DNA of 64,000 nucleotides from contig NZ_CP133319.1 of NCBI RefSeq assembly GCF_038811545.1, forward strand, positions 3,980,001 to 4,044,000, read 5' to 3'. The notes beneath the pieces are model-generated. The model did no database searches. It had not been told where the DNA came from and saw only the letters and a program-made list of their open reading frames with translations. Shown in pieces: positions 57,889 through 61,183 of the stretch. How positions within the stretch are numbered: the stretch's first letter is position 1; every line of letters starts with the position of its first letter. Origin of the DNA: Rhodoligotrophos sp. CJ14. GTDB lineage: Bacteria; Pseudomonadota; Alphaproteobacteria; Rhizobiales; Im1. A program made the translations under genes and the position numbers.

Positions 57889-58209
57889 TTATACTCGTCC
57901 TGCCGCCTGTTCAGGCGGCGTTTCGCGCCCGACATGCATCGCAGCATCCTCGATCATGTCTCTGACCAGTTCAAAGGCGATAGATTGCACCGCCTGCACA
58001 TCGGCACGTTCAGCGCCTGGCAGCCCTTCGACACTTGCGAATGTCTCTTCGGTCCGCTCCTTCAACCCTGCCAGAAGCGACAAGGCCTGCTCTCTGTCAT
58101 TGCGCCCGAGAGCAGCCGCAAGCTCCTTCAGTCCTTGGCCCAGCAGCCGAGTGGCCAATCGTCCCGCAATGGCCCTCATCTCAAGTGCGCTCAATTCCGC
58201 CTCAGCCAA
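57889..58209 (-). CDS. Small helical protein of unknown function
   Basis: A 106-residue protein. I choose the TTG start because AAGGAGAGG lies six bases upstream; the longer frame starting at 58311 runs into a dispersed repeat and is spurious. The protein is almost all helix: LSALEMRAIAGRLATRLLG, GLKELAAALGRNDREQALSL, VQAVQSIAFELVRDMIEDA. There is no signal or membrane segment. It may be an adaptor or a small regulator; no family is recognised. A GC-rich hairpin (GCCGCCT-GTTC-AGGCGGC) lies within its last codons. Confidence 0.5.
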   Translation of the reverse strand: MAEAELSALEMRAIAGRLATRLLGQGLKELAAALGRNDREQALSLLAGLKERTEETFASVEGLPGAERADVQAVQSIAFELVRDMIEDAAMHVGRETPPEQAAGRV

Positions 58210-58543
58210 TAGCGACCTCTCCTTCGCCTCAAAGCGTCCGCGATTCTTGAATCGTGAAACCGCCCTAAGTTGTTGCCTGGCCGCATTTCCTTCACGTGAA
58301 CCGGTGTCCACTTCGAAAATGCTCTAAGCCCAGATACGCTGCCTTGAGCGCCCTCGAACCCCGATGACCGAGGCTGGACCGACGAAAACCTGGTTCGACT
58401 GTGACAGCGCTGATGCGAGACGCTGCCGAAGGCTCGTGAGTGTACGAACAATGCGGCAAAAGTCAGTACTCAGAACAGGAAATTGGACCCTTCATGATCT
58501 GCCGGACTGAACGAGCCCGCCTTCGAAAAAGCCGGCGAGAATG
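58210..58543. other. Region between the small helical gene and the UDG-like gene
   Basis: A 334-bp region. It holds the upstream sequence of the small helical gene and dispersed repeat copy C at 58263-58328. The remainder has no gene-like reading on either strand and no terminator I can support. Confidence 0.45.
58263..58328 (-). repeat. Dispersed palindromic-type repeat, copy C
   Basis: Read on the minus strand it gives TTAGAGCATTTTCGAAGTGG, then ACACCGGTTCACGTGAAGGA, then AATGCGG and finally CTTAGGGC. This is the most complete match in the window to the Hyphomicrobiales dispersed repeat. Confidence 0.8.
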
Positions 58544-59332
58544 TCAGGCATAGGCGTGAGTTTGACAACCCAGCGCATGCTGCACGCCCTCGCGCGCGAG
58601 AATGCCCAATTGCGATCGCGGGTGACCCGTCTCGCCCAGCCAGTTTGGCAACAGGGCGCCCTGTGCCGCAAAATGCTCCACATGGACGAGTGTCACTCTG
58701 CCATCCGTGTGTGACACCTCGTTGACCTGCCGCCATTGTCCCGGCCGCGCGCGCTGAACCAGCTTGAGGACCTCTCGCACGTAATTGCCGCGAGTTCCGA
58801 GTCCGAACATGATCACCAGTTTTGTGGTGGCCGGCAGAAAGCCGAGAAAGCGCATCGCGCAGCGGCCCGCGACCTCCTGGCCGAAGGGAGTGGCGACAAA
58901 CCTGTCGAGCATGCCACCGCCCGAGCCCTTCCATTCTCCAGTTCGGCGGTCGCGCCGCTCGACGGTGCATCGGATGAGCGAGCCGAAATGGAAACGCCCG
59001 GTTTTATCTCCGATCAATTTGTCGACCATGCGCTTGAGCCCCTCCGGCTCCTGCTTTGGAATGAGCCCCACATGCGCAAGGATCTTGCCTACCTCCAAGC
59101 GCCTGCCCTTGAATGCGATGAGCTCATGAGGCGTCCCCGCGAGCGCACCGGCCTGTGACGGCCCTTTCGAAAAGCCGAGCAGAATGACCTCCGCATTCGG
59201 ATTGCCCCAGGCGAGCGGATTGGCGGTTATTCGCCAGTCTCCATCAGTACGGCGTGTCTGGTCGAAGGTAATGGGTTGGCGACCATAGCAGAGGCTGCAA
59301 TCGACGCGTCCAGGGTGAGGCAGGCAGGTCAC
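58544..59332 (-). CDS. Uracil-DNA-glycosylase-superfamily-like protein
   Basis: A 262-residue protein from GTG with GGGGAA five bases upstream. An N-terminal CSLCYGRQ resembles a metal or cluster site. The middle follows UDG-fold topology: strand VILLGFSKGPSQ in place of motif A, helix AFKGRRLEVGKILAHVGL, then RCAMRFLGFLPATTKLVIMFGLG, which matches the CxxFLxxxLxxxxPKxIxxLG segment of family 4/5 enzymes, and LVHVEHFAAQ where HPS would be. Active-site residues differ, so substrate and activity are uncertain. It lies downstream of a promoter with a LexA box. Confidence 0.5.
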   Translation of the reverse strand: MTCLPHPGRVDCSLCYGRQPITFDQTRRTDGDWRITANPLAWGNPNAEVILLGFSKGPSQAGALAGTPHELIAFKGRRLEVGKILAHVGLIPKQEPEGLKRMVDKLIGDKTGRFHFGSLIRCTVERRDRRTGEWKGSGGGMLDRFVATPFGQEVAGRCAMRFLGFLPATTKLVIMFGLGTRGNYVREVLKLVQRARPGQWRQVNEVSHTDGRVTLVHVEHFAAQGALLPNWLGETGHPRSQLGILAREGVQHALGCQTHAYA

Positions 59333-59638
59333 AGCGATTCCCCAATCATCAACTCACTGCTGCCAATAGACCTTCAGCACCTTCAATGACACCTGTCGGA
59401 ACTGCAGCGGGGAGTGCGAAAAAAGCGTCGCCACACCGGGTGCCGCTATCGGGAATATAACGCCGCTATGTGACAAGCTCGTTCGGCAAGGGGCAACTCT
59501 GTCCCGCCTGGGGACTTGGCTTCCCCGAGATCCGCGCCGTTCTTAAAACGGATACCCGTCGGGCGTCTCCATTTGCCTCCGCTTCTCCGCGGCCCGGCCC
59601 GCATTTGTTCTCTCCTACATTCACAGTCGGTTCACCGT

Positions 59639-59653
59639 GAACATAATAGGAAC
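59639..59653 (-). promoter_or_regulatory. LexA box overlapping the -10 element
   Basis: On the plus strand GAAC-ATAATAG-GAAC matches the alphaproteobacterial LexA operator GAAC-N7-GAAC exactly. Read on the minus strand it is GTTC-CTATTAT-GTTC and covers the -10 hexamer TATTAT. A 13-bp palindrome, GTTCACCGTGAAC, immediately overlaps its left half and may hold a second regulator. Confidence 0.7.
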
Positions 59654-59672
59654 CTTGTGTGGCGACTGTCAA
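59643..59672 (-). promoter_or_regulatory. Sigma-70 type promoter, minus strand
   Basis: TTGACA and TATTAT separated by 18 bases give a near-consensus promoter reading towards the UDG-like gene. The overlap with the LexA box suggests repression until DNA damage. The transcript would have a leader of about 300 nt. Confidence 0.6.
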
Positions 59673-59844
59673 CGGCCCCTGACGGAACTTGGCATCGGTG
59701 TTATAAAACGACCATGTTCTGATGCGATAGACGGACCTGTGCTTCCTTTCCGACCCGAAGGTGGCATGGCGAGGGCGGCGCGGACAACCCGTCCCGCCGC
59801 CGCTCGCGCTCCATATTCCTGTCGAACAAGGGTCGCTTCACGGC

Positions 59845-60651
59845 CTAGCGTTTTGCATTGGCCCGCTGCCCGGTTCGTGGGCGCCCGCGGCCGCTCATCT
59901 GATAAGCGAGTGAGAAGACCAGAATAGCCAGCCCAGCCAGCGCCCAGGGGCTTTCGAGCGTGGCGAGAAGAGCGGTGATGACGCCACTCGCCGCGGTGAT
60001 CCCGCCGGACATGACCGCGGGAATGTTGATCGGCAACTGGCTGATTCTAGATGTCTGCGGGCTGGTCGCCTGCGCCGCGTTGAGAGCGGCAAGGAACGCC
60101 TTATGATAGCCGGCAATCAACTGCGCCTGGTCGTTGATATTGATGATGGCCCGCGCTCCGACCGGATCATCCGTGGTGTCGTTGAAATATTCATCGAGCC
60201 TTCTGCCCGTGAACAGCCCGCGCTCCATGCCTTCAAACAGAATGCGCGTGGCCACGTAGAGATTGAGAGCGAGGTCCGGATTGTCCACGAGATCGACACC
60301 GATGAGATCGCCGACCCTCTTATAATTCTCAAGCCACGTGATCTGAACGAAGCCGCGGCCGTAATAGACATGCCCATTGGGAGCTGGCTTGCCATAGGGC
60401 CGCTTCCTGACCCGCCGCCGCGCCTCGGCGTCGGTTTTGGCGAAACCTTCCCGCACCTGCTCGAACCTGCCGCCGGTTTCATGATGCACAGTCGCCAGCA
60501 TATAGGCCAGATGCCGTAAGTCTTCATTCTGTGGCCAGGCCTCCCAATGGCTCAAAATCGCATCGAGGCCGGTGATCTGCTGGCGTGTCAGCTGTCCATC
60601 GAAAAGTCGTGCACTGATATCGGCAAAAAATATGTTTCTGTTGATGCTCAT
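59845..60651 (-). CDS. GH19-like muralytic enzyme with C-terminal membrane anchor
   Basis: A 268-residue protein. Residues 1-190 show the glycoside hydrolase 19 / chitinase-like lysozyme pattern: LAYMLATVHHETGGRFE with catalytic Glu58, YYGRGFVQITWLENYKRVGD, and DNPDLALNLYVATRIL. A Ser/Ile-rich linker leads to hydrophobic segments (VMSGGITAASGVITALLATL and WALAGLAILVFSLAYQM). It resembles phage or gene-transfer-agent endolysins with an added anchor. It probably cuts peptidoglycan. It lies between the LexA-box region and tRNA-Gln. Confidence 0.78.
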   Translation of the reverse strand: MSINRNIFFADISARLFDGQLTRQQITGLDAILSHWEAWPQNEDLRHLAYMLATVHHETGGRFEQVREGFAKTDAEARRRVRKRPYGKPAPNGHVYYGRGFVQITWLENYKRVGDLIGVDLVDNPDLALNLYVATRILFEGMERGLFTGRRLDEYFNDTTDDPVGARAIININDQAQLIAGYHKAFLAALNAAQATSPQTSRISQLPINIPAVMSGGITAASGVITALLATLESPWALAGLAILVFSLAYQMSGRGRPRTGQRANAKR

Positions 60652-60906: not shown

Positions 60907-61036
60907 CTCAAAATCCTGACAATTCAGCCATTTTTCGCCTCCGACACATCGGACGATGGCGAAGCGCGCGACGTGGCGGCCGCACACAAACGGGCACAGT
61001 TTGTTCACTTTATGCCCCAGCGGCCAGAGGTGGCGC

Positions 61037-61183
61037 ATGACCGCCGAACCTCCCCACGTATCCCTATGGCTCCGGCTCTGCTCCACGCCGCTCGTATGGC
61101 TTGGCGTGGCCCTTCTCGCTTGGGCGCTGATCTTCCTCCTCCTCTGCGTCCTTTGGCCCGCAATATCGGAGATGTGGTCATGA
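61037..61183 (+). CDS. Small single-helix membrane protein, holin-like
   Basis: A 48-residue protein: a short N-terminus (MTAEPPHVSLWLRLCSTP), one long hydrophobic helix (LVWLGVALLAWALIFLLLCVL) and WPAISEMWS. AGAGGTGG precedes the ATG. Its stop overlaps the next start by four bases (ATGA). Size and layout fit a small phage holin or toxin-like membrane peptide, but sequence alone does not prove it. Confidence 0.5.
   Translation: MTAEPPHVSLWLRLCSTPLVWLGVALLAWALIFLLLCVLWPAISEMWS

Follow-up and report, generated by a model that had tools for sequence, protein, structure and literature searches.

What does the LexA-type promoter at 59639-59672 control? The site lies in a 64,000-nucleotide stretch of DNA from Rhodoligotrophos sp. 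CJ14, analyzed as a whole and referred to here as the window, and it reads towards a gene that begins only after a long leader. The answer that we consider probable, drawn from sequence comparison and structural models, is that a working LexA operator-promoter puts a horizontally acquired gene of the UDG superfamily under SOS control. The features concerned are collected in Table 1.

Table 1. Features of the operator, the leader and the adjacent genes in the window
Feature	Position	Strand	Basis
LexA operator GTTCCTATTATGTTC	59653-59639	minus	exact GTTCN7GTTC; spacer 6th among 81 genomic matches
-35 hexamer TTGACA	59672-59667	minus	promoter scan
-10 hexamer TATTAT	59648-59643	minus	entirely within the LexA operator
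Leader of about 300 nt, promoter to gene	59333-59636	minus	ORF layout
52-codon ORF, ATG start, possible leader peptide	59604-59446	minus	AGGAG at 59616-59612, 7-nt spacing
UDG-superfamily-like gene, 262 aa	58544-59332	minus	GTG start, GGGGA 6 nt upstream
GH19 endolysin-like gene	59845-60651	minus, upstream of the promoter	Pfam E 4e-10; PHROG endolysin E 4e-35

The operator and its promoter

Pattern and promoter scans bear out the sequence-only reading of this site, which had described an exact alphaproteobacterial LexA operator overlapping the -10 hexamer of a near-consensus promoter. On the plus strand, the box at 59639-59653 reads GAACATAATAGGAAC, and the minus-strand promoter (TTGACA, 18-bp spacing, TATTAT) matches 11 of 12 consensus positions. 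Three promoter-like sites were observed in the interval 58400-59900 compared with 0.2 expected. One of the other two, a plus-strand site at 59620-59647 (10/12), likewise overlaps the box and points in the opposite direction, running antisense into the last part of the GH19 gene. A perfect 13-bp palindrome with a single central base, GTTCACCGTGAAC, is located at 59630-59642 and has one GAAC half-site in common with the LexA box.

The bare pattern GTTCN7GTTC is no more frequent than chance and is without evidential weight. The window holds one copy versus 1.32 expected, with at least one found in 77 of 100 shuffles, and the 4.81-Mb genome holds 81 copies compared with 134 for a reversed-pattern control. 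The box stands above chance because its A+T-rich spacer resembles those of the genome's own SOS boxes. We inspected what lies behind 16 of these 81, namely the lexA box and 15 others picked visually because their spacers are rich in A+T; the recA region, inspected as a 17th, contains no exact box. An SOS-type gene was recognized close behind eight of the 16, and none was recognized behind the other eight. Because half of the inspected boxes are without a recognized SOS gene, we hold the SOS-control explanation slightly less firmly.

Similar spacers precede lexA, imuA, yifB/comM, SRAP, uvrA/ssb, a PA0069-type radical SAM gene and a radical SAM-UDG operon. Measured from the first base of the box, the ORF start lies at 101 nt for LexA, 78 nt for YifB/ComM, 77 nt for UvrA, 45 nt for the ImuA homologue, 39 nt for the PA0069-type radical SAM protein, 26 nt for the TIGR03916 radical SAM protein and 23 nt for both SRAP and a second ImuA-like protein, the latter behind a consensus LexA box (L088, G000:C1:3752903). 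SSB lies on the opposite side of the uvrA box, at about 361 nt. The ImuA, ImuA-like and UvrA calls fall under the NCBIfam cut-offs, in the case of UvrA since its ORF is cut by the end of the locus. At G000:C1:4249575-4252266 (L089 and L151), a LexA-type box is followed by the TIGR03916 radical SAM gene and, with a one-base overlap, an ORF with a Pfam UDG domain; the genome apparently already has one LexA-controlled radical SAM-UDG operon here.

A spacer matrix was built from seven boxes at SOS genes and scored leave-one-out, these training boxes being a non-blind sample. By this matrix the box at 59639-59653 ranks sixth of 81, and a random spacer attains its score with a P of about 0.001, which corresponds to 0.08 expected among the 80 others. 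Scores above 4 are reached by 12 of the 81, followed by a drop to 0.3 for the 13th, and those above 4 include three inspected boxes (of four others) behind which no SOS gene was recognized. The genome encodes LexA (TIGR00498, E 2e-52), with its box 101 nt upstream, and RecA (E 4e-145), upstream of which GAAC half-sites are present and the exact box is absent. The SRAP box of this genome is identical to the Caulobacter box GTTCttgttatGTTC reported in the available text of PMC12700426. Likeness to the genome's own SOS boxes therefore leaves the identification of the site as a LexA operator well supported.

Lack of conservation of the box in related genomes was one of the conditions that the sequence-only reading had set for its own refutation, and the box did prove not to be conserved. 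Scored with the same matrix, no comparable LexA box was found upstream (up to 500 nt) of any of 41 related loci, for which the best score was 13.3 compared with 20.7 in the window and shuffle maxima of up to 19.3; conservation of the box was rejected on this count. By our own count 21 of these loci are alphaproteobacterial, one (L019) has 21 nt upstream only, and two (L029 and L170) are broken or partial. L015 carries an exact GTTCN7GTTC with a poor core, scoring 11.6, and in 28 upstream regions there is one exact GAACN7GAAC (L015) and one CTGTN8ACAG (L029), which is near chance. LexA control, if real, would therefore be confined to the locus in this genome. Because the gene is mobile and occurs at unrelated sites (see below), we take the missing conservation to mean that the promoter was acquired locally. 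There is no sign of selection on the pairing of box and gene, since none of the 41 loci has a comparable box and the gene is absent from the three nearest genomes.

Both the 0 of 41 loci and a pattern count that equals expectation in the window, and in the genome is lower than that of the reversed control, would fit a chance copy of GTTCN7GTTC that is not bound by LexA, with the gene expressed constitutively from the strong promoter. We regard this as distinctly improbable given that the spacer fits the genome's SOS boxes at the P value above, albeit with seven non-blind training boxes, and that the box coincides with the -10 hexamer of the best overlapping promoter among the 40 distinct boxes that were testable out of the 81.

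The leader and the gene downstream

The GH19 gene sits upstream of the promoter on the same strand, which leaves 58544-59332 as the only sizeable gene-like ORF downstream on the minus strand. Counted from the first base of the box, its start codon comes after 321 nt, which is long compared with the 23-101 nt seen for eight other genes of the genome, although ssb lies further away still. The sequence-only reading had allowed for an unseen small gene or RNA in this leader. Part of that suggestion stands, in that the 52-codon ORF has a good ribosome site and starts about 30 nt past the expected transcript start. In a search of 61 genomes the ORF has no convincing homologue, the best match outside its own genome being at E 0.011, and 44 of the 61 genomes yield a match with an E of at most 1, which is what chance would give. 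It matches no Pfam, NCBIfam or PHROG family, and as a conserved peptide it was rejected at the search sensitivity used. An RNA family or structured RNA was likewise rejected: scanning the leader against Rfam gave no family, and its fold is no better than that of shuffles (z 1.13). In 60 other genomes, with at most six candidates per genome scored, the leader has no scored DNA match.

It is conceivable that the LexA promoter is real and that its target is the leader, either as a 52-codon SOS peptide or as an untranslated RNA, with the UDG-like gene merely downstream. The well-spaced AGGAG would suit this explanation, as would the 49 nt between box and ORF start, counted as above, a distance inside the range of the eight SOS-type genes. 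Set against the missing homologues and families, an unremarkable fold and the absence of any terminator-like site in 58400-59900, we consider it quite unlikely and continue to favor 58544-59332 as the target.

Several repeated sequences occur nearby. The GH19 gene has at least four more copies in the genome, at 67-74% DNA identity. A dispersed repeat of approximately 90 bp at 58234-58326, inside ORF 57889-58311, has at least 12 further copies in the genome and more in the same-genus genome G002, and one of the copies (G000:C1:3753090) lies inside the imuA-like ORF behind the LexA box of L088. In addition, the 160 bp at 61024-61183 are 89% identical to G000:C1:1636881-1637040, a small duplicated stretch.

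A scan of the genome collection revealed 28 relatives of the 58544-59332 protein, with 50-66% identity, in alpha-, beta- and gammaproteobacteria as well as cyanobacteria. The gene is rare: with its own genome included each time, 8 of the 397 genomes from the order carry it, as do 3 of 385 from the class. Synteny with the three nearest genomes was of no use, as they lack the gene, and among the DNA matches listed only transporter, GH19 and repeat stretches were seen. The family also turns up in ten plasmid records and three viral contigs, whereas a search of 50,697 phage records yielded no relative. This is a mobile gene, located at unrelated sites. Five of the proteins (L021, L022, L023, L026 and L171) have C-terminal extensions of 127-156 residues, with no clear Pfam match in the two that were scanned (L021 and L023). 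We recognized no description of the family in the literature, of which our coverage was partial and in which the family has no searchable name.

Predicted fold and conserved residues

The 58544-59332 protein has no match in Pfam, NCBIfam, PHROG or PADLOC and none of note among PDB sequences, and assignment to UDG from these sequence libraries was discarded. The Pfam UDG model (PF03167) does not match the window protein and touches 2 of 27 members (best E 0.19), while Pfam Cutinase matched 2 of 27 at 0.066 and one of these 27 reached the Csm2 model of PADLOC with an E of 0.005. Aligned by hhalign with UDG families from related genomes, the profile scored 21.2 for family 5 and 24.3 over 50 columns for family 4, with reversed decoys reaching at most 18.0 and real UDG families scoring 50-105 against one another. 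Being consistent in its motifs with family 5 but weak, this alignment was set aside as sole evidence.

An AlphaFold model of the window protein, made from 27 sequences (26 of the 28 relatives were kept; L025 and L029, truncated or frame-broken, were left out), has a pLDDT of 86.8. Searched against the PDB with Foldseek, it finds UdgX at ranks 1 and 2 (E 0.019 and 0.022; probability 0.97 and 0.89), then SAUNG and poxvirus D4, with unrelated folds from rank 5, more UDG chains at ranks 6, 10 and 18, and no PDB match that passes E 0.001. In a viral model library, the first two matches are named UDG-like (E 0.06 and 0.08). The second model, of relative L026 (50% identical, pLDDT 81.2), has only UDG-superfamily structures at PDB ranks 1 to 11, including UdgX, human TDG and MUG, at E 5e-4 to 0.04; the best match reaches E 5.2e-4 with a probability of 1.00, and two fall below E 0.001. 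TM-scores of the models to UDG-superfamily targets are about 0.35-0.5, and the alignments behind the two models share most members, so that the tests are not fully independent. As for the earlier proposal of a UDG-like topology with altered motifs, it is upheld by the best PDB matches of both models, by invariant cysteines at positions like those in Fe-S UDGs and by H-P-S in four distant relatives; where a comparison with UDG families by HMM and structure had been suggested, the structural half agrees and the HMM and profile scores are weak. Overall, a UDG fold for this protein is supported by the models.

Conserved residues were counted in 38 aligned members, leaving out the broken or short L003, L025, L029 and L170. 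Four cysteines, C12, C15, C122 and C158, are identical in all 38, as are G53, S55, K56, G57, S118, H217 and H220. Motif A is G-[FVI]-S-K-G throughout and departs from the canonical G-x-x-P-[GAY]; the truncated copy L003, outside the count, has GFSNG instead of GFSKG. In motif B, H220 is followed by F-A in 33 of 38 members and by P-S in four distant relatives, the canonical motif being H-P-S (motif definitions from the available text of PMC10359453 and PMC10776899). The weak hhalign alignment pairs the four invariant cysteines with family 5, along with motif A and the His of motif B. The four family 5 cysteines that pair with C12, C15, C122 and C158 are presumably cluster ligands, and the protein is likely of the Fe-S type. 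Ser118 is invariant at the presumed place of the uracil-reading Asn, where the second core strand ends and hhalign leaves a gap, and apparently replaces this Asn of the Fe-S UDGs. The insert after the third cysteine is WKGSGGGML in most members and contains no His. Conserved departures of this kind from the usual motifs suggest that the enzyme acts on some damaged or modified base rather than on plain uracil, and this base may be one in phage DNA.

Replacement of the usual residues of motif A, and probably of those of motif 3 (as defined in the available text of PMC10359453 and PMC10776899), might instead indicate a UDG-fold protein that is no glycosylase and, for instance, senses or binds DNA with abasic sites or modifications. 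This seems to us unlikely, as the polar candidates S55, K56, S118, H217 and H220 do not vary in any of the 38 members, unlike a relaxed active site.

Under the explanation that we favor, LexA would cover the -10 hexamer in undamaged cells. DNA damage would lead to RecA-promoted cleavage of LexA and so free the promoter. Transcription would then pass through the 300-nt leader, reach the gene and give rise to the 262-aa protein, a probable Fe-S, UDG-fold enzyme that would flip a base out of the DNA and remove it. A mobile, divergent UDG-family gene would thus have landed behind a LexA promoter, or have acquired one, such that base excision is switched on by damage.

Neighboring genes and comparison with known systems

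At the loci of the relatives, a protein of about 300 aa is found by BLAST upstream of the UDG-like gene in seven cases and a related-looking one in four, and therefore in at least 11 of 40. This count joins two BLAST clusters that were judged related by eye from a shared central motif; L168 was left out as near-identical to L009, and L166 holds a 104-residue piece only. The partner ends 23-527 nt before the UDG-like gene (527 nt in L006), and a motif of the type ELALLAxVDERTVRNA is present in both kinds. Pfam HTH_3 matches the partner of L025 at E 3e-10 and that of L018 weakly, with no match in L026 or L171. In five loci a small ORF resembling DUF4258 is situated between the partner and the UDG-like gene; in the three that were scanned, Pfam DUF4258 matches at E 6.5e-4 (L013), at 0.037 (L164) and not at all (L024). 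DUF4258 is listed as a RelE/ParE-type family with unknown activity in the available text of PMC11980606.

Defense genes also adjoin the UDG-like gene at some loci. At E 1e-8 or better, 141 PADLOC models were matched among 126 neighbor proteins versus 10 among 119 controls from arbitrary places in related genomes (12 of 131 controls were dropped for size), with many models matching the same few neighbor proteins. On individual re-scan, 7 of 10 hand-picked neighbors were matched. L028, L029 and L168 were dropped from one further step of the comparison of loci. Named defense neighbors occur in four loci in total: REase_III and Orf5/HEC-06 in L030; Orf5/HEC-06, PDC-S26 and PDC-S48 in L163; ZacB and ZacC in L010; and McrBC in L009. 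In L012 and L218 the UDG-like gene lies about 30 nt after an integrase-like ORF, named by eye, and Pfam Phage_integrase matches 3 of the 126 neighbors.

An HTH-type partner, a DUF4258-like small ORF (with weak HMM support), adjacent defense genes, the excess of PADLOC matches and integrase-like ORFs at some loci would all be consistent with a mobile anti-phage base-excision protein with a Brig-like role, acting with an HTH regulator and a DUF4258-like protein in other hosts, for which SOS control is secondary and which does not serve housekeeping repair. Such a role is a serious possibility, to which we nevertheless give less than even weight: inspected by eye, the window copy has no defense gene or HTH partner alongside and has transporter genes on both flanks, the PADLOC controls come from other genomes and the models converge on few proteins, and the named defense neighbors are confined to four loci, with the phage records holding no relative. 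It overlaps with LexA control of a UDG-superfamily gene because that explanation leaves the role open. Damage signals can also follow phage attack, and so SOS control would suit a defense role.

A more specific proposal, and a doubtful one, is that this undescribed UDG family is a mobile base-excision immune enzyme directed against modified phage DNA, accompanied elsewhere by an HTH/DUF4258-like module and wired to the SOS response here, in which the near-invariant motif A lysine may be the nucleophile. If this were true of the lysine, the protein would be a glycosylase/AP-lyase or a self-cross-linking enzyme; we know of no UDG-fold enzyme that uses lysine as nucleophile. The sharp residue pattern (K56, S55, S118, H217, H220 and the four Cys) makes the family directly testable.

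Among known systems, the site shares with the alphaproteobacterial LexA regulon the exact GTTCN7GTTC, an A+T-rich core and overlap with the -10 hexamer; in the literature that we surveyed we saw no report of a gene of this family as a member of that regulon. UDG families 5 (UDGb) and 4 (UDGa) have G-x-x-P-[GA] as motif A whereas this family has G-F-S-K-G, and the Asn of their T-N-[AV] strand apparently corresponds to Ser118; the likeness to family 5 is the weak profile alignment described above, with its matches at the cysteines and in motifs A and B. UdgX, an Fe-S, cross-linking uracil-DNA glycosylase related to family 4 and the best PDB structural match of both models, has GEQPG, KRRIH and HPSSLLR (available text of PMC10359453), in contrast to GFSKG, WKGSGGGML and HFAS in most members of this family. 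The insert after the third cysteine probably sits at about the place of the UdgX R-loop, but has no counterpart to the nucleophilic His of KRRIH. Brig1 and Brig3 are UDG-superfamily enzymes reported to be antiviral through excision of modified cytosines (available text of PMC11078745 and PMC13160076), and the likeness, which is by description only, is that of divergent UDG-superfamily proteins in defense settings. Homologues of Brig1 are mostly from Actinobacteria according to the available text of PMC11078745, whereas the family described here was found in Proteobacteria and Cyanobacteria.
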